DNA from: Tumebacillus lacus
Lineage (GTDB): Bacteria > Bacillota > Bacilli > Tumebacillales > Tumebacillaceae
Direction: 5' to 3'
NCBI RefSeq assembly: GCF_026410385.1
Contig: NZ_JAPMLT010000003.1
Coordinates: forward strand, 310,001-374,000
DNA length: 64,000 nucleotides
Part shown: in pieces, positions 2,991-14,023 of the stretch
Layout of the letters: each line of letters starts with the position of its first letter
How positions within the stretch are numbered: the stretch's first letter is position 1
The notes under the pieces: model-generated
Told to the model about the DNA's origin: nothing
Database searches by the model: none
Seen by the model: only the letters and a program-made list of their open reading frames with translations
Program-made: the position numbers and the translations under genes

Positions 2991-3599
2991 ATGGCACATC
3001 AACTCCCGGCACTCCCGTACGCGTTTGACGCACTCGAACCGCATTTTGACGCGCTGACCATGGAGATCCACCATGACCGTCACCACGCGACCTACGTAAA
3101 CGGCCTGAACGCAGCTCTGGAAGCACACGCAGACCTGCAAGGCAAATCCCTGGAAGAGCTGCTCGCAAACATCGACGCGCTTCCGGAAGGCATCCGCACC
3201 CCGGTTCGCAACCACGGCGGAGGCCATCACAACCACTCCCTGTTCTGGGAAATCCTCTCCCCGAACGGCGGCGGCGAGCCGACCGGCGCAATCGGTGACG
3301 CGATCAACGCGGCATTCGGTTCCTACGAGAACTTCAAAGCCGAGTTCACCAAAGCGGCTACCACCCGTTTCGGCTCCGGCTGGGCATGGCTGGTCGTAAA
3401 CAACGGCAAGCTCGAAGTCACCTCCACCCCGAACCAAGACTCCCCGGTCATGGAAGGCAAAACGCCGATCCTCGGCCTCGACGTCTGGGAGCACGCGTAC
3501 TACCTCAAGTTCCAAAACAAACGCCCGGACTACATCGGCGCGTTCTACAACATCATCAACTGGGACGAAGTCAACAAGCGCTTCGCAGCTGCGAAGTAA
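2991..3599 (+). CDS. sodA: Superoxide dismutase, Mn/Fe type
   Basis: 202 residues, the usual length. It converts superoxide to oxygen and hydrogen peroxide in the cytosol. The metal ligands are visible in order: a His in [13 protein letters not shown] (about residue 27), a His in [14 protein letters not shown] (about 82), and Asp and His in [13 protein letters not shown] (about 164 and 168). The [11 protein letters not shown] and DVWEHAYY signatures are family-specific. Metal choice cannot be fixed by eye; Mn is usual in Bacilli. AGGAGG precedes the ATG. It is a single-gene unit with its own promoter and terminator. Confidence 0.97.
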
Positions 3600-3611
3600 T
3601 TCGTCTTTCAT

Positions 3612-3652
3612 AAAAAACAACCGACTCTCACTGCAGAGTCGGTTGTTTTTTA
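3612..3652. terminator. Bidirectional terminator between sodA and the convergent HEAT-gene transcript
   Basis: A 17-base perfect stem (AACAACCGACTCT / AGAGTCGGTTGTT) has A-runs on the left and T-runs on the right. It ends sodA on the plus strand, and the small minus-strand frame at 3650-3811 stops exactly at its edge. Confidence 0.9.
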
Positions 3653-3811
3653 TTTCTCATACACATACCCGATATCTCTGAGGTCTTTCAACAACTTCTC
3701 TTGATCCAAAGAAATCAAAAAATCATCCTCACTTTCCCAATCATCTCCCGCGGAAATTCGACGTCTCATACAGGGCTTTGCGATTACGAAAGAATTGAAG
3801 CCGTTTTTCAA
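3650..3811 (-). CDS. Small hypothetical protein, 53 aa, TTG start
   Basis: The frame starts at a TTG that overlaps the restored stop codon of the HEAT-repeat gene (TTGA) and ends at the shared terminator. The product is acidic at its C-terminal half (GDDWESEDDFLISLDQEKLL, then KDLRDIGYVYEK) and resembles no family I recognise. No separate ribosome-binding site is visible, so expression would depend on coupling. It could be a real coupled gene or the remnant end of an older one. Confidence 0.35.
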   Translation of the reverse strand: MKNGFNSFVIAKPCMRRRISAGDDWESEDDFLISLDQEKLLKDLRDIGYVYEK

Positions 3812-4409
3812 TGTTGTGTGGGTGGAGCTTGTTTTTCACGAATTTTTTCTAGTTTCTTGATCACTTTTTTCGCTTCGTTGCGATATCCGGCAACTTGGTG
3901 AGTCAAAAAAGGCTCCACATAGGGAATTAAGTTCGAGTTCTTCAAGCCCCAATCGCATCAATCGCATGCAAATTCACATCCTGATCGTGTAACAACTCGA
4001 GTAAGACAGATGCTTCCTTTGCACCCCCGAGTTTCCCAACTAGCGTTACAATCATCTGTCTCGATCTTCCATGCTCTTTGTTCTTAATGATCTCTACATA
4101 TTCGTGAAGTTTAGACTTATCCCGGATGATTTCTAACGAATTGCCGATCGCCCATTTATAGTAGTGACTATCAGATTTACGGTACTCCTCGATAAGAAAC
4201 GAAGTCACCTCATCGTATCCCTTTACCCCTAAACATCGTACCAGTGTTTGCTTGTCCCGTTCATCTGTGATCGTTTGCAGATGTTCTAAAAGAACAGGTA
4301 TGACAACTTTGTCCTTTGGACCGATCTTCATTAGATCGTTTAACCCAGAAATACTGTATCCAAGCTGATTAACTTGCTCAATTAATCGATTCTTATCTAA
4401 TGGGATCAT
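3808..4409 (-). pseudogene. HEAT-repeat protein interrupted by a -1 frameshift
   Basis: An open frame from 4409 (GAGGAGG ribosome-binding site) encodes 155 residues of HEAT/PBS-lyase-like repeats, for example VIPVLLEHLQTITDERDKQT and VTLVGKLGGAKEASVLLELL. It stops at 3942 in the middle of a repeat (LHAIDAIGA). Adding one T at about 3945 joins it to LKNSNLIPYVEPFLTHQVAG and a lysine-rich end that stops at 3808, completing the repeat naturally. Such solenoid proteins bind partners, and some act as immunity proteins in toxin systems; no toxin gene is nearby. Either a real frameshift has truncated the gene or one base was missed in sequencing. Confidence 0.7.
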
Positions 4410-4584
4410 GGTACCTCCTCACTTCTTAGCTTCTATATGAGTGTAATCTTGCCTATATCGATTCTTGTTAGCCCCTGTCCACTCCTTCCACCTCGCCAGC
4501 ACTTCCTCTCATTCTGCGACTCGCATGTCTCATGGCTCAACCCCACTTGAATCCTTCCTGATTTTCCCGCAAAAGATATTTAAA

Positions 4585-4646
4585 ATGTCGAATCATCGTG
4601 CAGGAATCTGTGTTTTCTTGTCGAATTCATGTCGAAACGTGACGAA
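4585..4646 (+). promoter_or_regulatory. Cluster of four Spo0A boxes (TGNCGAA)
   Basis: TGTCGAA occurs at 4586-4592, 4619-4625 and 4630-4636, and TGACGAA at 4640-4646. The middle one is the full TTGTCGAA consensus. Spacings are 33, 11 and 10 bases, so all lie on about the same face of the helix. They surround the sigma-H-like promoter of the kinase operon. Confidence 0.65.
4600..4628 (+). promoter_or_regulatory. Candidate sigma-H promoter for the sensor-kinase pair
   Basis: GCAGGAATC (4600-4608) and GTCGAATTC (4620-4628) with an 11-base spacer match the sigma-H consensus RNAGGAWWW-N11/12-RNNGAATWW except at the last base of each box. The expected transcript would start near 4635, about 55 bases before the TTG start. 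The Spo0A box at 4618-4625 overlaps the -10. Confidence 0.6.
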
Positions 4647-4689
4647 CGAACGCCTGTATTCTGTTTGACTTGATTGAGGTGAAAACCAG

Positions 4690-5976
4690 TTGTCCGGTAT
4701 TCAAGACTTATTTCTGAATTTCCTGTTGATTTTGATTCCGATCTTTATCTACCAGTCGTTTTGGGTGGAACGCCGGGACTTCGTGCCGCATCGCAACCGC
4801 GCCGCGATCACCGTGCTCACCGCCGTTTCCATACTGCTGTGCATGACCTTCCCGCTGCGTCTGTCGCCCGACTATCTCTATGACCTGCGCTTGATCCCGC
4901 TTCTGCTCGGCATCCTCTACGGCGGACGCCGTTCCGGGCTGTTGCTGATCGCCGTGTTGTTCGCCTATCGCCTGTTTCTGGGCGGCAACGGACTGTGGGT
5001 GGCGCTCGGGACGTACCCGGTCGTTCTGCTGATCGCCTTTTGGCTGGCTCCCCGCTTCCGCTATTTTGCGAGAGGTCAGAAAGTCATGCTCGCCGTCCTG
5101 CTGGCGACGCTTTCCTCGACGCTGGTCAACCTCGTCATCCTGCTCTCCGAAGGGATGCCTTTCTTTGAGAATGAGCATCTGCCGCTGTTTGCCGCCTATA
5201 CGCTTCTTCACGCGTTCGGCATGTGGCTCGCTCTCTATCTGATCGAAAACATGCGGGAAAAAGTCCACATGCGCCGTGAGATCCAACGCGCCGAAAAGCT
5301 TCAGGTGCTCGGCGAACTGGCCGCCTCGCTGGCCCACGAGATCCGCAATCCGATGACGGTCGTGCGCGGCTTCCTCCAACTCCTGCTCGAAGGCCGCCTC
5401 GACAAAGAAAAAGAGGCCCTCTTCCTGCGCATGAGCATTGAAGAACTGGACCGCTCGGAAAAGATCATCACCAACTACCTGTCCTTCGCCCGTCCCAAAA
5501 CGGAAGAAGAGCAGATCTCCTTCGACGTCGGGGAACGCATCGCCCACGTCACCGGCATCATCTCCTCGTTTGCGCTGTTGCGCAGCGTCGAGATCCGCCA
5601 ACACACGGAGCTCGGGCTGTTTGTCGAGGCCGATCCGTCCAAGTTGAGCCAAGTGCTGGTCAACCTGTTCAAAAACGGCATCGAAGCGATGCCCACAGGC
5701 GGCACGCTGACGATCCAGGCCGGCCGGGAAAACCGTCACGTCATCATCGACGTGCGGGACACCGGCATCGGCATGACCAAGGAAGAGACGGCGCAGCTCG
5801 GCAGCGCCTTTTACACGACGAAAGAATCGGGCACCGGCCTTGGCTTCATGGTCTCCTACCAACTGATCCAAGCCATGAACGGCACGATCGAAGTCACCAG
5901 CGAAAAGGACATCGGCACCCGCTTTAAAATCTCCCTGCCCGCCGCTGACGAAGAGATGCGAGGTGAGCCTGCATGA
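4690..5976 (+). CDS. KinB-like sporulation sensor histidine kinase (first copy)
   Basis: 428 residues starting at a TTG, 9 bases after AGGTG. About residues 1-190 form six or so membrane spans of the 5TM/LYT type seen in KinB. The HisKA domain follows, with the phosphorylated His in SLAHEIRNP (about 216). HATPase_c has VNLFKNGIEAM (N box), DTGIGM (G1), and FYTTKESGTGLGF (F/G2) near the end. In Bacilli such orphan kinases feed phosphate to Spo0F/Spo0A. No response regulator is adjacent, which fits a phosphorelay kinase. The promoter region carries sigma-H and Spo0A signals. The sporulation role is inferred from these features. Confidence 0.85.
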   Translation: MSGIQDLFLNFLLILIPIFIYQSFWVERRDFVPHRNRAAITVLTAVSILLCMTFPLRLSPDYLYDLRLIPLLLGILYGGRRSGLLLIAVLFAYRLFLGGNGLWVALGTYPVVLLIAFWLAPRFRYFARGQKVMLAVLLATLSSTLVNLVILLSEGMPFFENEHLPLFAAYTLLHAFGMWLALYLIENMREKVHMRREIQRAEKLQVLGELAASLAHEIRNPMTVVRGFLQLLLEGRLDKEKEALFLRMSIEELDRSEKIITNYLSFARPKTEEEQISFDVGERIAHVTGIISSFALLRSVEIRQHTELGLFVEADPSKLSQVLVNLFKNGIEAMPTGGTLTIQAGRENRHVIIDVRDTGIGMTKEETAQLGSAFYTTKESGTGLGFMVSYQLIQAMNGTIEVTSEKDIGTRFKISLPAADEEMRGEPA

Positions 5977-8038: not shown

Positions 8039-9665
8039 GCACGGCACCTTCCTCCCGTTCGCGCACCCGGCGCTTGTACTCATACGCCAGCGGCTCGTTC
8101 AGCGACGCGTGGCGCAACAGGTCCGGCCGGGCAAACAACTCCTGCGGCTGCCCGTCAAAGAGCAGCCCGCCCTCGGCAAACACCAACACCCTCGTCGCAT
8201 ACGCTGCCACGATCTCCATGTCATGCGTCGCCATCAGGATCGTCGTGCCCTGCCCGTTGCGCTCGGCGAGGCGCTGGAGCAGTTCTTCCGTCGTCGCCGC
8301 ATCCTGCCCGAACGTCGGCTCGTCGAGGAGGAGCAACTCCTGATTTTTCAAGAGCATCCCGGCGACGCTCAGCCGCCGCTTTTGCCCCTGAGACAGCGTG
8401 AACGGGTTTTTGCCGCGCAACTCCTCAAGGCGGAAATCGACCAGCAACCGCTCCGTCTCCGCCTGCACCTGCTCCTGCGGCCATCCGGCGAGCTTGCCGC
8501 CAAATGCGACCTCCTCATAGACCGTGTCGGCGATAAACTGATGCTCCGGGTTTTGAAACACAAATCCGACCGCGTCATACAACGCTTCTGATTTGTAGCT
8601 CTTCAGTTCCTTTTTCTTCCACAAGACCTTGCCTTCCGTCAACTCGTGCAGACCGCCGACCGCCTTCAGGAACGTGCTCTTGCCCGCTCCGTTCGCGCCG
8701 ACGACCGCGACCCACTCGCCCGGCCGCACCTCGACGTCCACATCCGACCAGACCCGCAGGCCGCTGCGGTACGTCAGCCCGCCGCCCTGCACAGCCAGCA
8801 GCGGTGCATCCGCTTTTCGAACCGCCTGCTCCATCTGCGTCTCGACCGCCCGCTGCTCAAAGCGGGCCGCCTGCTGAGTCAACGAAGCACCCAGTTCATG
8901 GCCCGGAAGCAACAGCTCCGGCCACGTCACCGGCCACAGGCGCGGCGTCCAGATCCCGTACCGCTTGATCGCATCGGCGTGATCGCGCAGCACATCCTCC
9001 GGTCGCCCTTCACCTTCGATCCTCCCCTGCGATCCGAACAGCAGCACCCGGTCGACCGCTTCCATCGCACCGTCCAGTTTATGCTCGATCAGCACAAGCG
9101 TCTTTTTGCCATGCAGGCGGCGGATGTCCTCCAGCACATAACGCGTGTTCTCCGGGTCAAGCTGCGCCGTCGGCTCGTCAAAAAACAGCACATCCGGCTC
9201 CAAAGCCAACAGACACGCCAAAGCCAATCGCTGCTTCAACCCGCCCGACAGCTCATTGATCCTGCGGCAAAGCGGCACATCCAACCGCACTTCCTTCATC
9301 AAGGCCTCGATTCGTCCGCGCATCTCGGCAGGCGGCACCATGCGATTTTCCAAGGAGAACGCGATCTCGTCCTCCACCGTCATCATGCAAAACTGCGCAT
9401 CCGGGTCTTGGAACATCACCCCGACCCGGTCCGGCCGGTAGACCGTCCCTTTCATCCACGCATCGACCGAGCGCGGGATGATCCCGGACAGCACCAGAGC
9501 CAGCGTGCTTTTGCCGCTGCCGCTCGGGCCGAGCAGGAGCACGCTTTCCTTTTCTTCGATCGAAACACTCATCTCGCTCAGGGCAGGCGTTTCCCGGTCA
9601 AAAAATTGCACAGACACCCCTTCACAGCCGAGAAAGGGTGTCTTGTTGAGGTGCGTATGGTTCAT
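8031..9665 (-). CDS. ykoD: Fused double ABC ATPase of an ECF transporter (YkoD-like)
   Basis: 544 residues containing two complete ABC domains. The first has Walker A GPSGSGKST (about 46-54), signature ELSGGLKQR and Walker B VLFFDEPTAQLDP. The second has Walker A GANGAGKST (about 325), signature TLSQGQKRR and Walker B LLLLDEPTFGQD. Both are intact, so both should hydrolyse ATP. A single fused ATPase is the YkoD arrangement; most ECF systems use two separate genes. The start overlaps the ykoE stop (TAATG). It powers uptake by YkoE/YkoC. Confidence 0.9.
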   Translation of the reverse strand: MNHTHLNKTPFLGCEGVSVQFFDRETPALSEMSVSIEEKESVLLLGPSGSGKSTLALVLSGIIPRSVDAWMKGTVYRPDRVGVMFQDPDAQFCMMTVEDEIAFSLENRMVPPAEMRGRIEALMKEVRLDVPLCRRINELSGGLKQRLALACLLALEPDVLFFDEPTAQLDPENTRYVLEDIRRLHGKKTLVLIEHKLDGAMEAVDRVLLFGSQGRIEGEGRPEDVLRDHADAIKRYGIWTPRLWPVTWPELLLPGHELGASLTQQAARFEQRAVETQMEQAVRKADAPLLAVQGGGLTYRSGLRVWSDVDVEVRPGEWVAVVGANGAGKSTFLKAVGGLHELTEGKVLWKKKELKSYKSEALYDAVGFVFQNPEHQFIADTVYEEVAFGGKLAGWPQEQVQAETERLLVDFRLEELRGKNPFTLSQGQKRRLSVAGMLLKNQELLLLDEPTFGQDAATTEELLQRLAERNGQGTTILMATHDMEIVAAYATRVLVFAEGGLLFDGQPQELFARPDLLRHASLNEPLAYEYKRRVREREEGAVHV

Positions 9666-10246
9666 TAGAACGGCCGTTCCATCTTTTTCTTGACGATCGC
9701 GTAGGAGTTCAGCACGCCGGTCTTGACCAGCAGACCTGCCACCACTTGTGCGAGGAGACCTGCAAAGATCGCCCCGGACAGCACGCGCAGCACGATCTTC
9801 GCCGTCATCGCCGTCGTGTTCAGCTCCGCCAGGTAGCCGGAGAACGCGTCGTACACAAGGCTCGCCGCACCTGCAGCCGCGCCTGCCAGCAGCAGCACCG
9901 GGAGCTTGAAGTTTTTGTAGCCGAAGATCAGGAAGATCACCTCGGTCGCCGCGCCTTGCGCCAGACCGTAGAGCAGCGTCGACAGCCCGTACGGACCGCC
10001 CATCAAAAGCTCCCCGGAAGCGGCCGCCACTTCAGCCAGCAGCGCGATGCCCGGCTTTTGCACGATCAGCGCGGCCAGCACGCCCGCAAAGAACCAGACC
10101 CCATAAATCGAATCGCCCGCGCCCGGAAGCGCTGCGTCCAAGCCCATAAACAGCGGAGCCCACCCCACGTAGAGAAAACCACAGATGATCGCCAGGATCA
10201 CCGTGATCATCACTTCGCGGAAGTTTACGACATTGCCAGTTTTCAT
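9665..10246 (-). CDS. ykoE: ECF transporter S component, thiamine/HMP-related (YkoE-like)
   Basis: 193 residues, almost all hydrophobic, with about six membrane spans. The N-terminus (FREVMITVILAIICGFLYVGW) and GELLMGGPYGLSTLLYGLAQG are characteristic of YkoE. In B. subtilis the YkoEDC system is assigned to uptake of the thiamine precursor hydroxymethylpyrimidine or thiamine. The TPP riboswitch directly upstream supports this. It is the first gene of the operon, followed by ykoD and ykoC with overlapping ends. No ykoF is present. Confidence 0.88.
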   Translation of the reverse strand: MKTGNVVNFREVMITVILAIICGFLYVGWAPLFMGLDAALPGAGDSIYGVWFFAGVLAALIVQKPGIALLAEVAAASGELLMGGPYGLSTLLYGLAQGAATEVIFLIFGYKNFKLPVLLLAGAAAGAASLVYDAFSGYLAELNTTAMTAKIVLRVLSGAIFAGLLAQVVAGLLVKTGVLNSYAIVKKKMERPF

Positions 10247-10320: not shown

Positions 10321-10364
10321 ACGAGACAGATCGAGGCTGAGTGTTTCAGTACTTTTGCTCAGTC

Positions 10365-10462
10365 AGGTCACTTCCTCACGCCGGTATTACCCAGGATCGA
10401 GTTCGGAGGGTTAGCGTTCTTTACGCTTCTCAGCCTGCAAAAGGCACCCCTAGCGACTGCGG
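10365..10462 (-). ncRNA. TPP riboswitch (THI element)
   Basis: The minus strand carries the conserved THI-box parts in order: CTAGGGGTGCC, then GGCTGAGA, ACCCTCCGAA, and CTGGGTAATACCGGCGTGAGGAAG. These are the pyrimidine- and pyrophosphate-sensing arms of the TPP aptamer. It precedes ykoEDC and is followed by a terminator, so it should turn the operon off when thiamine pyrophosphate is plentiful. Confidence 0.92.
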
Positions 10463-10522: not shown

Positions 10523-10566
10523 AAAAAAAGCCCGGCCTGCGTCCTGCGCATAACCGGACTTTTTTT
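10523..10566 (-). terminator. Terminator of the 9-codon peptide gene
   Basis: The minus-strand RNA forms AAAAAAAGUCCGG / CCGGGCUUUUUUU with a U-G wobble. On the plus strand the same position is a C-A mismatch, so it is built for minus-strand transcripts. Its AAAAAGTCCGGT arm is shared with the terminator at 10726-10765. Confidence 0.75.
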
Positions 10567-10585
10567 GGTTGTTCGCCCGCTCATA

Positions 10586-10615
10586 TTACCAGATGATGAG
10601 GATGTTGCGCTCCAT
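10586..10615 (-). CDS. Nine-residue peptide gene MERNILIIW
   Basis: A complete mini-gene on the minus strand. TTGTAA-N17-TAAAAT promoter (10638-10666) is followed by a full AAGGAGGTGA ribosome-binding site 6 bases before the ATG, nine codons, TAA, then an intrinsic terminator. The product ends in IIW, as does the 34-residue PIIW-repeat peptide encoded 165 bases upstream. Its promoter and terminator are diverged copies of those flanking the radical-SAM/PIIW unit. It could be a minimal precursor for the radical-SAM enzyme, a short hydrophobic signal peptide, or a shrunken duplicate. The perfect ribosome-binding site argues that it is translated. Confidence 0.6.
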   Translation of the reverse strand: MERNILIIW

Positions 10616-10637
10616 GTCTGCTCACCTCCTTGACTTC

Positions 10638-10699
10638 ATTTTATCTGATTATTCTTTTTATTACAACTATTGACTTTATTTCTGAAATGAATATAATAG
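10638..10699. promoter_or_regulatory. Back-to-back promoter block A
   Basis: Minus strand: TTGTAA (10666-10661), 17 bases, TAAAAT (10643-10638), driving the 9-codon gene. Plus strand: TTGACT (10670-10675), 16 bases, TATAAT (10692-10697), which reads only about 30 bases before meeting the terminator at 10726. The block is a diverged copy of 12488-12558 upstream of the radical-SAM gene. Confidence 0.6.
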
Positions 10700-10725
10700 C
10701 AAACAATACATTAATGGATAAAATA

Positions 10726-10765
10726 AAAAGTCCGGTCAGCGTCAGACGCGTGGACCGGACTTTTT
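10726..10765. terminator. Terminator after the PIIW-repeat peptide gene
   Basis: A 12-base perfect stem (AAAAGTCCGGTC / GACCGGACTTTT) encloses a second stem GCGTC/GACGC. It works on both strands and ends the radical-SAM/peptide transcript. Confidence 0.85.
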
Positions 10766-10779
10766 GGGTCATCGGGTGA

Positions 10780-10884
10780 TTACCAGATGATCGGAGCGAC
10801 TTCGTTGTTCCAGATGATCGGCTCAGCCGCGTTTTTCCAGATGATCGGCTCAACGTTTTTCCAGATGATCGGTTGGTTTTCCAT
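10780..10884 (-). CDS. 34-residue peptide with four PIIW repeats; candidate RiPP precursor
   Basis: The product begins MENQ and contains four PIIW blocks separated by KNVE, KNAAE and NNEVA; the last block is followed directly by the stop. At DNA level the four repeats are identical 12-mers (ccgatcatctgg). AGGGGATG precedes the ATG at a normal distance. The gene lies 71 bases after the radical-SAM gene with no terminator between, so the two share a transcript that ends at 10726-10765. Repeated short cores next to a radical-SAM enzyme and an exporter are the hallmark of ribosomally made, post-translationally modified peptides. Trp or Ile in PIIW would be the modification site. I know no described family with this core. 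Confidence 0.75.
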   Translation of the reverse strand: MENQPIIWKNVEPIIWKNAAEPIIWNNEVAPIIW

Positions 10885-10955
10885 GTTTGTCATCCCCTGT
10901 TCTCGATTTTTTATATGGAAGCGGTCAAGCCGCAGGTCCATCAGTTAGGAAGATC

Positions 10956-12398
10956 TTACGCGTTTTCCAAAACGACCGTCGGCTTCTCGTCGAACGGAAG
11001 CAGCAGCTCCGTCCGATCCGGCTCTCGGCCGTCTTCGATGCGGCCCTCGATGTAGTTCGAGATGATCGTGCGGCCTTTTTCCGGCATCAGGTAGTAGATG
11101 AGGTTGACGTAGAACAGCCAGCCGGGCTGTGCCAGCAGATAGCGGTCCTCGTACTCCACCACAAACCCGCCTGCCACCACTTCGTCAAACCGCTGCTTGA
11201 CCTCGGCCGGGATGCGATCCCAGTCGATGCGGTCTTTTTCCAGCGAGCCGCGGTACGGGAAGTAGATGATGCCTTTTTCCGGGCATGCCTCGATCTCGTA
11301 CGCCTGCGTCGGCAGTTCACCTTCGTCCAGCGCTTTGAAATACTGGTCGAGGTTGGCCACGTTGGTCATCAGGAAGCCCTGCGCCTGAGTGTAAGCGCCG
11401 GCGCCGAATGCGATGACTTCGTCTTCTTCATGGCCGTACGCAACATCATGATACATGAACACCGGGTCCGGATGAATCGAGACGCGACCGGTGACTTCGG
11501 CCGGTTTTTTGGTGTAGGCATAGCCGTTGATCGCGACGTAGCCCCGAGCACGCATGTACTCGTCGAGGAACATCCGGTGCGAGACCTTGGTCATCATCGA
11601 GAGCTGCGGCAGCGATTGCTTGCGCATCTCGCGGTGCATCTTCATCGACGCCGCCATGTTGTTCAGCGGGTAGAAGTCGACCGTCTTGGTCCCGAGCGCC
11701 ATCGCATGTTCCGCGTCTTCGATCAGTTCTTCGACCGTCTGCCCGGCCATGCCGTAGATCATGTCCACGTTGACGTAGCCGATGATCTCTTTGCCCCACT
11801 CGGCCACCTGGCGCACTTGCTCCACCGTCGACGTGATGTTGAAGATCTCGCGGTATTTCGGGTTGAAGGTTTGAATGCCGAAGGAGATCCGGTTGACCCC
11901 GATCGACTTCATCGCTTCGAGTTTCTCGCGGGTCACGCTCTTGACTTCCAACTCGAACGTGAACTCTTTGAGCTGTGAGAGATCGAAGTGGCGATGGATC
12001 GCTTCGCCGAGGCGCTTGATCTGGTCGGCGGTCATGACCGACGGCGTGCCGCCGCCGATGAAGATCACCTCGACCGGGACTTTCCCGACCGCCGGATACT
12101 GGCTCTTCAACTCGATCTCTTTCAGTAAAGCGTTTACATATCGTTCTACCGCATCAGACTCCGAATGGTTGGCGATCCGGTAGAAGGGGCAAAACGTACA
12201 GATCGTGTCACAGAACGGCACGTGGAAGTACAGAGCGCGGCGGCGGCTTCCCGGCACATTTTCCAACCGAACCAGCGCTTCGTGAGCGGATACTTTCGGG
12301 CTATCCGCTGTCAAGAATGGATAGTACCAGTTGTAAACCGGCAGCTGACGGTCGAACTTGAGCAGGGTATCGTGTTCGTTGATCTTCAAATCAAACAT
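10956..12398 (-). CDS. HemN/HemW-like radical SAM protein, candidate PIIW-peptide-modifying enzyme
   Basis: 480 residues. The radical SAM cluster motif CDTICTFC (Cys 63, 67, 70) sits in YFHVPFCDTICTFCPFYR, the arrangement of the coproporphyrinogen-oxidase-like group. FIGGGTPS (about 115) and NRISFGIQTFNPKYREIF are also typical of that group. An unusual N-terminal segment contains VYNWYYPF. HemN-like proteins include porphyrin enzymes, haem chaperones and methyltransferases that act on peptide natural products. No haem-synthesis gene adjoins it. The next gene is the PIIW-repeat peptide and an MFS exporter is divergent, so a peptide-modifying role is inferred. GGGAGG precedes the ATG. Confidence 0.8.
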   Translation of the reverse strand: MFDLKINEHDTLLKFDRQLPVYNWYYPFLTADSPKVSAHEALVRLENVPGSRRRALYFHVPFCDTICTFCPFYRIANHSESDAVERYVNALLKEIELKSQYPAVGKVPVEVIFIGGGTPSVMTADQIKRLGEAIHRHFDLSQLKEFTFELEVKSVTREKLEAMKSIGVNRISFGIQTFNPKYREIFNITSTVEQVRQVAEWGKEIIGYVNVDMIYGMAGQTVEELIEDAEHAMALGTKTVDFYPLNNMAASMKMHREMRKQSLPQLSMMTKVSHRMFLDEYMRARGYVAINGYAYTKKPAEVTGRVSIHPDPVFMYHDVAYGHEEDEVIAFGAGAYTQAQGFLMTNVANLDQYFKALDEGELPTQAYEIEACPEKGIIYFPYRGSLEKDRIDWDRIPAEVKQRFDEVVAGGFVVEYEDRYLLAQPGWLFYVNLIYYLMPEKGRTIISNYIEGRIEDGREPDRTELLLPFDEKPTVVLENA

Positions 12399-12487
12399 GT
12401 TCGTCCTCCCGTTCCAGATGCGGACCGGTGACGCCCGCAGCCGTTGTAATGTTTTATTTTTGCATGATTACTTTCAAGCGTTTCTTG

Positions 12488-12558
12488 TTGACTCAATAGT
12501 ATCTGATAATTCTATGTATTTCAACTATTGACTTTACAGTATCTTTGATTATAATAAT
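12488..12558. promoter_or_regulatory. Back-to-back promoter block B of the radical-SAM/PIIW operon
   Basis: Minus strand: TTGAAA (12524-12519), 17 bases, TACTAT (12501-12496), toward the radical-SAM gene. Plus strand: TTGACT (12528-12533), 16 bases, TATAAT (12550-12555), toward the MFS gene. The two -35 boxes are three bases apart around TCAA-CTA-TTGA, an inverted repeat that could bind a regulator. About 70 bases align with block A (10630-10699). Confidence 0.65.
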
Positions 12559-12658
12559 CAGGCATATTGGGTTAGGGTAATTAATACACAAATGCATAGG
12601 AATTTCACTTCTTTTCGAAAATGTTTTCTTCCTTCCGTTTTGCATGCCTTTTGTCCGA

Positions 12659-12687
12659 TTGACCCTTATGAATTTTCGGAATAAAAT
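12659..12687 (+). promoter_or_regulatory. Promoter of the MFS exporter gene
   Basis: TTGACC (12659-12664), 17-base spacer, TAAAAT (12682-12687), 35 bases before the MFS start codon. Confidence 0.6.
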
Positions 12688-12721
12688 AAACTCTTACAAG
12701 CGAATCATGGAGGTGCACTTG

Positions 12722-14023
12722 ATGAGCAACCAGACTGCGCCGCCTGTCACCTACCGCGCTGTCTTGCAAAACCGCAACTATTTCTGGATGTGGATCGGTC
12801 AAGCGATCTCGCAGATCGGCGATGCGCTCAGCGTCGTGGCGATCCCCTTGCTGGTGTATCAGATCACCGGTTCGGCACTCGACCTGGCGATCTCCTTTAT
12901 GATCACCACGTTGCCTTGGATCTTGATCGGTCCCTTTGCCGGCGTGCTCGTCGACCGGGCCGACCGGCGGACGGTGTTGATCGCAACAGATTTGATTCGT
13001 GTCCTGTTTATGTTGATCATCTTCTTCACCAGCAACATCTACCTGATCTACGTCTTGCTCTTCCTGTCGCAGTGCATGGCGACGATCTTCTCCCCGGCCC
13101 GTTCCGCCGTCATTCCGGAACTGGTGCCGCGCGAGATGTACGTCAAGACGATCGGACTCTCCTATACGACCTTCCAGATCTCGCAGATGATCGGGCCGTT
13201 TCTGGCGGCCGGTCTGGTCGCGCTGGCAGGCGGTGCCCGCACGATCATCCTGCTGGACAGCTTCACCTTCCTCGCCGCGGTGCTCGCCACGCTGATGATC
13301 CGCTTCCCGGACAGTGCTCGCCGCTCGGCCGCCCGATCTGCCGCCTCTTCCGCTGGCAGATCAAACGGCATCGTCACGATCCTGAGCCAGATGAAAGAAG
13401 GAGCGATGACGATCCTCCGCACACCGCTGCTGCGCTTTGCGACGATGATCTCGCTGTTGCGCTACTTGGCACGCACGGTGTTGCTCATGGGCGTGTTGCT
13501 CTATTTGAAAGACGGCCTTGGCATGTCGGCGACGGAGAGCGACTCGCTCTACACGCTCGTCGTCTCGGCCGCCGCTGTCGGCACGGTGCTCGGCACGTTG
13601 TTGATCGGCTGGAAAGAGCGCTCGTGGGAGCGTCGTCTCGTGATCGTCGGCGGAGTGATGCTGCAAGGGCTGTGCTACGTCGGCGTGCTGCTGCACCCGT
13701 CCGCGTGGTGGCTGATCGCTCTGTTCCTGCTCTCCGGCCTGTTCGAAGCGGGCGCGATCACCCCGGTGTCCGCGCTCTTCGCCGAAGGAACGCCAAACGA
13801 AGTGCGCGGTCGCGTCTACTCGGTGATCAACGCGATCCTCTACGCGTTCTCGCTCCTCACCTACAGTGTCGCAGGTCCCGTCGTCGAAACGGCTGGACCT
13901 GTCGCGCTGATCGCCCTGGGCGGCCTGTTCATGCTGATCGCCGCCCCGCTGATCGCTTGGAGCACCGGAGCGTATCGCCTGTTAAAACCGGACGTGCCGC
14001 AAGGGCACACGCATTCCGCGTGA
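12722..14023 (+). CDS. MFS transporter, candidate exporter for the PIIW system
   Basis: 433 residues with about 12 membrane spans. It has the drug-exporter-type loop DRADRRT (about residue 75) and GGARTIILLDSFTFLAAV, typical of the Bacilli MFS group related to macrolide-type exporters. The ATG at 12722 has GGAGGTG 7 bases upstream; an earlier start at 12644 has no ribosome-binding site and would precede the promoter. It is transcribed divergently from the radical-SAM/PIIW operon. A role in exporting the modified peptide is inferred from position only; a multidrug efflux role is the alternative. Confidence 0.8.
   Translation: MSNQTAPPVTYRAVLQNRNYFWMWIGQAISQIGDALSVVAIPLLVYQITGSALDLAISFMITTLPWILIGPFAGVLVDRADRRTVLIATDLIRVLFMLIIFFTSNIYLIYVLLFLSQCMATIFSPARSAVIPELVPREMYVKTIGLSYTTFQISQMIGPFLAAGLVALAGGARTIILLDSFTFLAAVLATLMIRFPDSARRSAARSAASSAGRSNGIVTILSQMKEGAMTILRTPLLRFATMISLLRYLARTVLLMGVLLYLKDGLGMSATESDSLYTLVVSAAAVGTVLGTLLIGWKERSWERRLVIVGGVMLQGLCYVGVLLHPSAWWLIALFLLSGLFEAGAITPVSALFAEGTPNEVRGRVYSVINAILYAFSLLTYSVAGPVVETAGPVALIALGGLFMLIAAPLIAWSTGAYRLLKPDVPQGHTHSA

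Follow-up and report, generated by a model that had tools for sequence, protein, structure and literature searches.

The window, which is the whole stretch of 64,000 nucleotides of Tumebacillus lacus DNA that was analysed, contains a small cluster of peptide, enzyme, and exporter genes with the following features:

12644-14023, forward strand: MFS exporter (MFS_1/MFS_3), likely start at the ATG at 12722 (MSNQTAPP...)
12488-12556, between the divergent genes: divergent promoter region of the radical-SAM (rSAM) and MFS genes, with the dyad TCAATAGT...ACTATTGA, from sequence reading and alignment
10956-12398, reverse strand: HemN-fold rSAM enzyme of 480 aa, with the CxxxCxxC motif at C63, C67, and C70
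10780-10884, reverse strand: main precursor MENQPIIWKNVEPIIWKNAAEPIIWNNEVAPIIW, 34 aa plus stop, from sequence reading and the count of SD-preceded small ORFs
~10725-10766, reverse strand: intrinsic terminator of the main precursor gene, AAAGTCCGGTC...GACCGGACTTTTT, from sequence reading
10630-10698, no strand assigned: region upstream of the second precursor gene that resembles the rSAM/MFS divergent promoter region, from alignment to 12488-12556
10586-10615, reverse strand: second precursor candidate, MERNILIIW, 9 aa, with a strong SD (AAGGAGG) shortly before the ATG and an IIW end
~10523-10567, reverse strand: intrinsic terminator of the second precursor gene, a GC-rich hairpin and T run similar to the terminator of the main precursor gene

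The main precursor gene has 34 codons and encodes four PIIW blocks, each of them the same 12-base DNA repeat (4/4 identical, CCGATCATCTGG), and the final Trp codon abuts the stop codon, as the first-pass annotation of this DNA had described. The spacers between the blocks (KNVE, KNAAE, and NNEVA) are unequal in length. An alternative start at the ATG at 10893 would lengthen the reading frame by nine bases (MTNMENQ..., stop at 10780); the start at 10884 (MENQ...) has the better-spaced ribosome site (AGGGG-N9). The gene lies on the same strand as the HemN-like rSAM gene, 71 nt 3' of its end, and the MFS gene is divergent from the rSAM gene, so the gene order given in that annotation was also correct.

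The first-pass annotation was right about one precursor at the locus; it overlooked a second, MERNILIIW, inside 10586-14023 (AAGGAGGTGAGCAGAC-ATG-GAGCGCAACATCCTCATCATCTGG-TAA). The region upstream of this nine-codon gene (10630-10698) aligned to the region upstream of the rSAM gene (12488-12556) with a score of 76, compared with a best score of 63 and a mean of 36 for 500 shuffled sequences. The end of the MERNILIIW gene with its terminator aligned to the end of the (PIIW)4 gene with a score of 77 (best of 500 shuffles, 45). Promoter elements of the form TTGWAA-N17-TAMWAT on the reverse strand and TTGACT-N16-TATAAT on the forward strand were recognized by eye in 10630-10698. Judged from the sequence, the MERNILIIW gene resembles a shortened second copy of the precursor cassette, with the promoter duplicated in front of it. 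The dyad in 12488-12556, which is in part copied at 10630-10698, is a possible operator.

The only Pfam match of the rSAM enzyme was Radical_SAM (1.6e-22). The best NCBIfam model, that of the haem-degradation methyltransferase ChuW/HutW (TIGR04107), scored 205.7 bits against a cut-off of 400, and the enzyme fell below all NCBIfam cut-offs for HemN-like equivalogs (hemN, 150.7 versus 324.95 bits; HemZ, 138.1 versus 321.4 bits; HemW, 141.5 versus 205.4 bits). Unlike ChuW/HutW, which belongs in a haem-uptake context, the enzyme is encoded beside peptide and exporter genes; the neighbours are an ABC_cobalt permease with a TPP riboswitch, the MFS gene, and UvsE, and no haem gene was found among the scanned neighbours of the window cluster. 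On the NCBIfam scores, a haem enzyme, which the first-pass annotation had named as an outcome that would speak against its proposal, was rejected.

The AlphaFold model of the enzyme (mean pLDDT, 77.8; pTM, 0.81) matched HemN (1olt) best, with a Z score of 33.5 over 401 residues; the next match had a Z score of 14.2. The predicted HemN fold together with CxxxCxxC is a feature of class C radical-SAM methylases. The cluster-binding loop (residues 66-79) was modelled with low confidence, which was counted as a point against the explanation favoured below. Comparison of the family profile with solved proteins gave two matches, E. coli HemN and NocN, of which NocN (106 bits) aligned with the rSAM half of the profile and not with the rest. 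The residues that bind the second SAM (SAM-II) in NocN are Tyr34, Arg153, Asp196, Ser225, and Tyr96 (PMC13266988). In the alignment, Tyr34 and Asp196 correspond to Y57 and D212, both invariant in the family, Arg153 corresponds to R170, which is kept in most members, and Ser225 aligns with the invariant D241. Two points count against the correspondence: Tyr96 is not kept in the aligned family, and the Alicyclobacillus/Glaesserella/Xenorhabdus branch lacks Arg153 at that alignment position. Because the SAM-II residues of NocN mostly map onto kept positions, the enzyme is likely to use two SAM molecules, as HemN and NocN do.

In the rSAM clade of the window, a candidate precursor with an exact C-terminal Trp was found in 11 of 11 loci, in several phyla, so that a ribosomal precursor gene and a candidate peptide-modifying enzyme recur as a set; the 11 loci are the window, L033, L035, L006, L007, L008, L010, L009, L028, L030, and L031. 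One ambiguous locus (L042) and one broken by insertion sequences (L029) stand outside this count. The loci of the paralogue, of two other Tumebacillus genomes, and of Paenibacillus (L033, L035, L006, and L007) encode peptides of ~50 residues that end in ...SEW (...LLSEW). The Ktedonosporobacter locus (L008) encodes MAPKLGTDSIWTPKLGTDSIW and the adjoining MTPQPGTVEGW, both behind AAAGGAGGT. The precursor on the Alicyclobacillus plasmid (L028) is MRDIVWDIVW. Beside a B12-rSAM and a HemN-like rSAM, Microseira encodes a TIGR03067-like protein that ends in VSQW (L010:3498-3953), and the gammaproteobacterial MAG encodes a TIGR03067-like protein that is frameshifted and retains the VSQW end (L009:725-1187). 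The precursors of Glaesserella (L030) and Xenorhabdus (L031) are MENAIELFVSRKNEEHYDFNNVAW (MENAIELF...NNVAW) and MESAMELFEVDINDCDLQGLCMW (MESAMELF...GLCMW). A single peptide family accounts for L033, L035, L006, and L007, another for L009 and L010, and probably a third for L030 and L031, so the 11 loci represent about six independent peptide families rather than eleven.

The Trp-ended ORFs were sought with the expectation known, and as a guard, small ORFs that follow an SD and lie outside large ORFs were counted in the window and 18 loci: 12 of 187 ended in Trp, 8 of these 12 in clusters of the rSAM clade of the window, compared with 4 of ~179 outside the clade clusters. Of 203 large ORFs, 3 ended in Trp, and these included the Microseira precursor candidate. 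No Trp-ended ORF was found beside any of the seven rSAMs of a sister clade. In a maximum-likelihood tree, a single branch (support, 97/96) separated the 10 tested rSAMs with Trp peptides from the 7 without, a split that none of 500 label shuffles equalled.

In most relatives the precursor has just one Trp, its last residue. Three unrelated precursors carry tandem Trp units, (PIIW)4, (DIVW)2, and (TPKLGTDSIW)2, and each Trp repeat within a precursor is probably a unit, as judged from the sequence, because the residues before Trp are repeated within these three. Across families, only Trp is invariant, and the residues at positions -1 to -3 before it follow no pattern. IIW was therefore rejected as the family core, and the PIIW/IIW core motif proposed in the first-pass annotation was not borne out. 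Of the two target residues that it had offered, Trp is the sole shared one and Ile, which is not shared, is an unlikely target. It had also recommended a search for IIW peptides beside homologues of the enzyme and would have taken their absence as a refutation; most homologues do lack one, yet other Trp-ended peptides are encoded there, and because of this the rule was too narrow. The absence of a pattern at -1 to -3 disfavours a crosslink of the triceptide or streptide type, which would join Trp to one fixed partner.

The proposed combination of an rSAM enzyme, a short repeated peptide, and an MFS exporter as a RiPP-like set does recur, with MFS partners 35-50% identical to that of the window: 42-50% in the Tumebacillus and Paenibacillus clusters and 35% in Ktedonosporobacter, compared with 24-28% for other MFS proteins. 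Related MFS partners are common to five clusters. The MFS proteins of the Alicyclobacillus (L028), Klebsiella (L029), and Xenorhabdus (L031) clusters are not close relatives of that of the window, so that what these clusters have in common is the exporter function and not the gene itself, and neither the Microseira nor the gammaproteobacterial MAG locus yielded an MFS gene. Two B12-rSAMs and a substrate-binding-type protein are added in four clusters. As scored on the Paenibacillus copies, one B12-rSAM matched the tryptophan 2-C-methyltransferase model, among others (111 bits; cut-off, 500), and the model nearest to the other was ApyD (268 bits; cut-off, 750). SpeD is added in the Glaesserella and Xenorhabdus clusters, and P450 genes in those of Glaesserella and Klebsiella. 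The smallest version is the cluster of the window, with the enzyme, two peptides, and the exporter. Neither a recognition-element gene nor a dedicated protease was seen in it, and no protease is conserved in the relatives.

These results are best explained, with reasonable confidence, by a RiPP family in which a HemN-like enzyme acts on the Trp of Trp-ended, often leaderless precursors and the product leaves through an MFS protein. The two tiny genes would give the (PIIW)4 and MERNILIIW peptides, the Trp of which would be modified by the HemN-like enzyme, probably with two SAM molecules. A one-carbon unit (methyl or methylene) would be moved to the indole ring, and the modified product would exit through the MFS pump. 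The peptide is probably the substrate of the enzyme, and if it is, Trp is very probably the modified residue; Trp rather than IIW is the likely target because the residues before it lack a cross-family pattern. Export by the MFS protein is likely. Transfer of a one-carbon unit is our favoured chemistry, held tentatively and by analogy. It is preferred because HemN-like natural-product enzymes carry out such transfers on sp2 carbons, as the characterized examples do (PMC13266988), and because companions resembling aromatic C-methylases are encoded in some clusters; ApyD itself beta-methylates the Tyr adjoining the C terminus (PMC11117315).

Precursor sizes range from the 9-mer to the 151-aa TIGR03067-like protein. 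The longer relatives carry N-terminal extensions; in those of 9 to 10 aa a leader would not fit. A leader peptide or recognition element is usual in RiPPs but not universal. Precursors of nine and ten residues are extreme for RiPPs, and this was counted against the proposal, as was the fact that the Trp of internal repeats is not C-terminal unless the peptide is cut. Cutting of (PIIW)4 into several products is possible. The family may be leader independent, with a stand-alone two-SAM HemN-type enzyme that recognizes little beyond a (C-terminal) Trp in precursors of 9 to ~150 residues, multicopy (PIIW)4 included. No RiPP that combines a HemN-like enzyme with a C-terminal Trp was found described in the open-access literature, and the family is apparently undescribed. 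If the proposal is right, such a family is hardly visible to present genome mining: precursors of 9 to 34 residues, without a leader or recognition element, are mostly unannotated, and the enzyme is annotated as haem type. HemN-like enzymes would gain a ribosomal-peptide substrate of minimal size, on which two-SAM chemistry at Trp would be easy to assay by means of synthetic peptides, and Trp at the last codon would be a simple trait for finding further members, including those on Gram-negative plasmids.

The main rival for the chemistry is oxidative decarboxylation of the C-terminal Trp by the rSAM enzyme, which would leave an enamide end. HemN, the closest solved fold, decarboxylates propionates, but its substrate is not a peptide. 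The SAM-II radical drives the decarboxylation in HemN (PMC13266988), and MftC decarboxylates the C-terminal Tyr of mycofactocin (PMC9062424). Decarboxylation stays a serious rival because Trp is strictly terminal, a position that is kept in all 11 loci and that side-chain methylation would not require. However, three precursors keep internal Trp repeats, which would need to be cut first, and four clusters encode B12 methylase-like enzymes alongside the rSAM. Decarboxylation is considered less likely than not. Much the same low probability is given to the idea that the Trp-ended polypeptide is a carrier only, with the modified Trp set free as a small Trp-derived metabolite and the rest being a scaffold, as for pearlins. 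The lack of conservation in the remainder of the precursor, the drug-type MFS exporter in place of a peptidase ABC transporter, and the SpeD and P450 genes of the Gram-negative clusters fit a carrier. Against this, no protease that would release the product was seen, and (PIIW)4, (DIVW)2, and (TPKLGTDSIW)2 also keep residues before Trp that a pure carrier would not need.

A further suggestion concerns only the role of the product and is compatible with the modification of Trp in a RiPP family: the modified Trp-ended peptide may be a short signalling pheromone, exported and then sensed by a cytoplasmic TPR receptor. A 405-aa HTH and TPR regulator is divergent from MRDIVWDIVW in Alicyclobacillus, an HTH, NB-ARC, and TPR protein lies upstream of the Ktedonosporobacter cluster, and the dyad-containing promoter region of the window is copied before MERNILIIW. 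However, TPR regulators are common and were not seen in most other clusters, and no HTH-TPR receptor of the kind that defines RRNPP systems was present among the scanned immediate neighbours of the window cluster. A pheromone role is rather improbable, slightly less so than decarboxylation or a carrier. Least probable by a wide distance is the absence of any peptide product, with the enzyme serving in the metabolism of haem or of other compounds and the short reading frames untranslated or due to chance. The enzyme is HemN-like and its nearest named models are haem enzymes, but it is well under all of their cut-offs with no haem genes among the scanned neighbours, and Trp-ended ORFs accompany every one of the 11 loci while being scarce elsewhere and not found in the sister clade.

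Among characterized systems, the class C radical-SAM methylases (NosN/NocN, TbtI, and C10P) share the HemN fold, CxxxCxxC, and a likely second SAM site with the enzyme, and the indole group on which NosN/NocN acts is part of a RiPP (PMC13266988). Their scaffolds are of the thiopeptide or polyketide type, in contrast to the tiny, Trp-ended, and often repeated precursors here. Aminopyruvatide-type RiPPs made with ApyD have an rSAM-modified aromatic residue near the C terminus (PMC11117315), and ApyD-like B12-rSAMs occur in related clusters; the window cluster differs in having no B12-rSAM, MNIO, or recognition-element gene, and in ending its peptides with Trp rather than Asp. In mycofactocin (MftA/MftC), too, an rSAM enzyme acts on an aromatic residue at the C terminus. 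This enzyme, MftC, is of the SPASM type and has a recognition partner, and the residues before Trp are, unlike in mycofactocin, not fixed here. RaS-RiPPs such as streptide and tryglysin are likewise short Trp-containing peptides adjoining an rSAM enzyme and an exporter. They are made by SPASM enzymes, contain Lys-Trp crosslinks, and are regulated by Rgg/SHP, whereas the Trp-ended precursors here have no conserved partner residue.

The T. lacus genome encodes a paralogue of the rSAM with 60% identity. A scan of GTDB genomes recovered relatives in Tumebacillus flagellatus, Paenibacillus xylanexedens, Ktedonosporobacter rubrisoli, a gammaproteobacterial MAG, and Microseira wollei; a genus search added one further Tumebacillus-type genome, and plasmid records added Alicyclobacillus, Klebsiella, Glaesserella, Xenorhabdus, and Cytobacillus. 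No new clade members were found in the own phylum (398 genomes), the Paenibacillus order (399), the Paenibacillus genus (76), the cyanobacterial phylum (386), the gammaproteobacterial class (369), or the Ktedonobacterial class (47), and nothing closer than a distant match (28-31%) came from viral contigs and phage records. Members of the clade are rare and scattered, a pattern like that of specialised metabolism that moves horizontally.

The conjugative plasmid of Klebsiella pneumoniae carries a decayed copy (L029:5300-9799) in which the rSAM and P450 genes are cut by insertion sequences and no peptide is visible. On the plasmids of Glaesserella parasuis (L030:1048-4834) and Xenorhabdus (L031:5435-10789), a Trp-ended peptide, not annotated as such, is followed by an AdoMet decarboxylase-like protein and the HemN-like rSAM, and the clusters continue with P450 or ornithine decarboxylase and then an MFS gene. 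The sister clade (L034, L036-L041, and L032), from Tumebacillus, relatives in the same family, and a Cytobacillus plasmid, consists of HemN-like rSAMs with ~32% identity that adjoin another MFS gene, in places as two tandem copies near two protease-like genes. The ambiguous locus, counted outside the 11, is a lanthipeptide-type cluster near the second group-A rSAM of K. rubrisoli (L042:1940-2903 and 3112-5421). It encodes a C39 peptidase ABC transporter and three peptides with double-glycine-type leaders, two of which end in Trp (CRAGGDW and CADGQEW).

In the window, a TPP riboswitch (Rfam, 63.8 bits) is located at 10356-10461 on the reverse strand, preceding a permease component of the ABC_cobalt family (9665-10246) and ABC genes of the energy-coupling type. 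This operon, which lies right after the second peptide, probably serves the uptake of a thiamine precursor.
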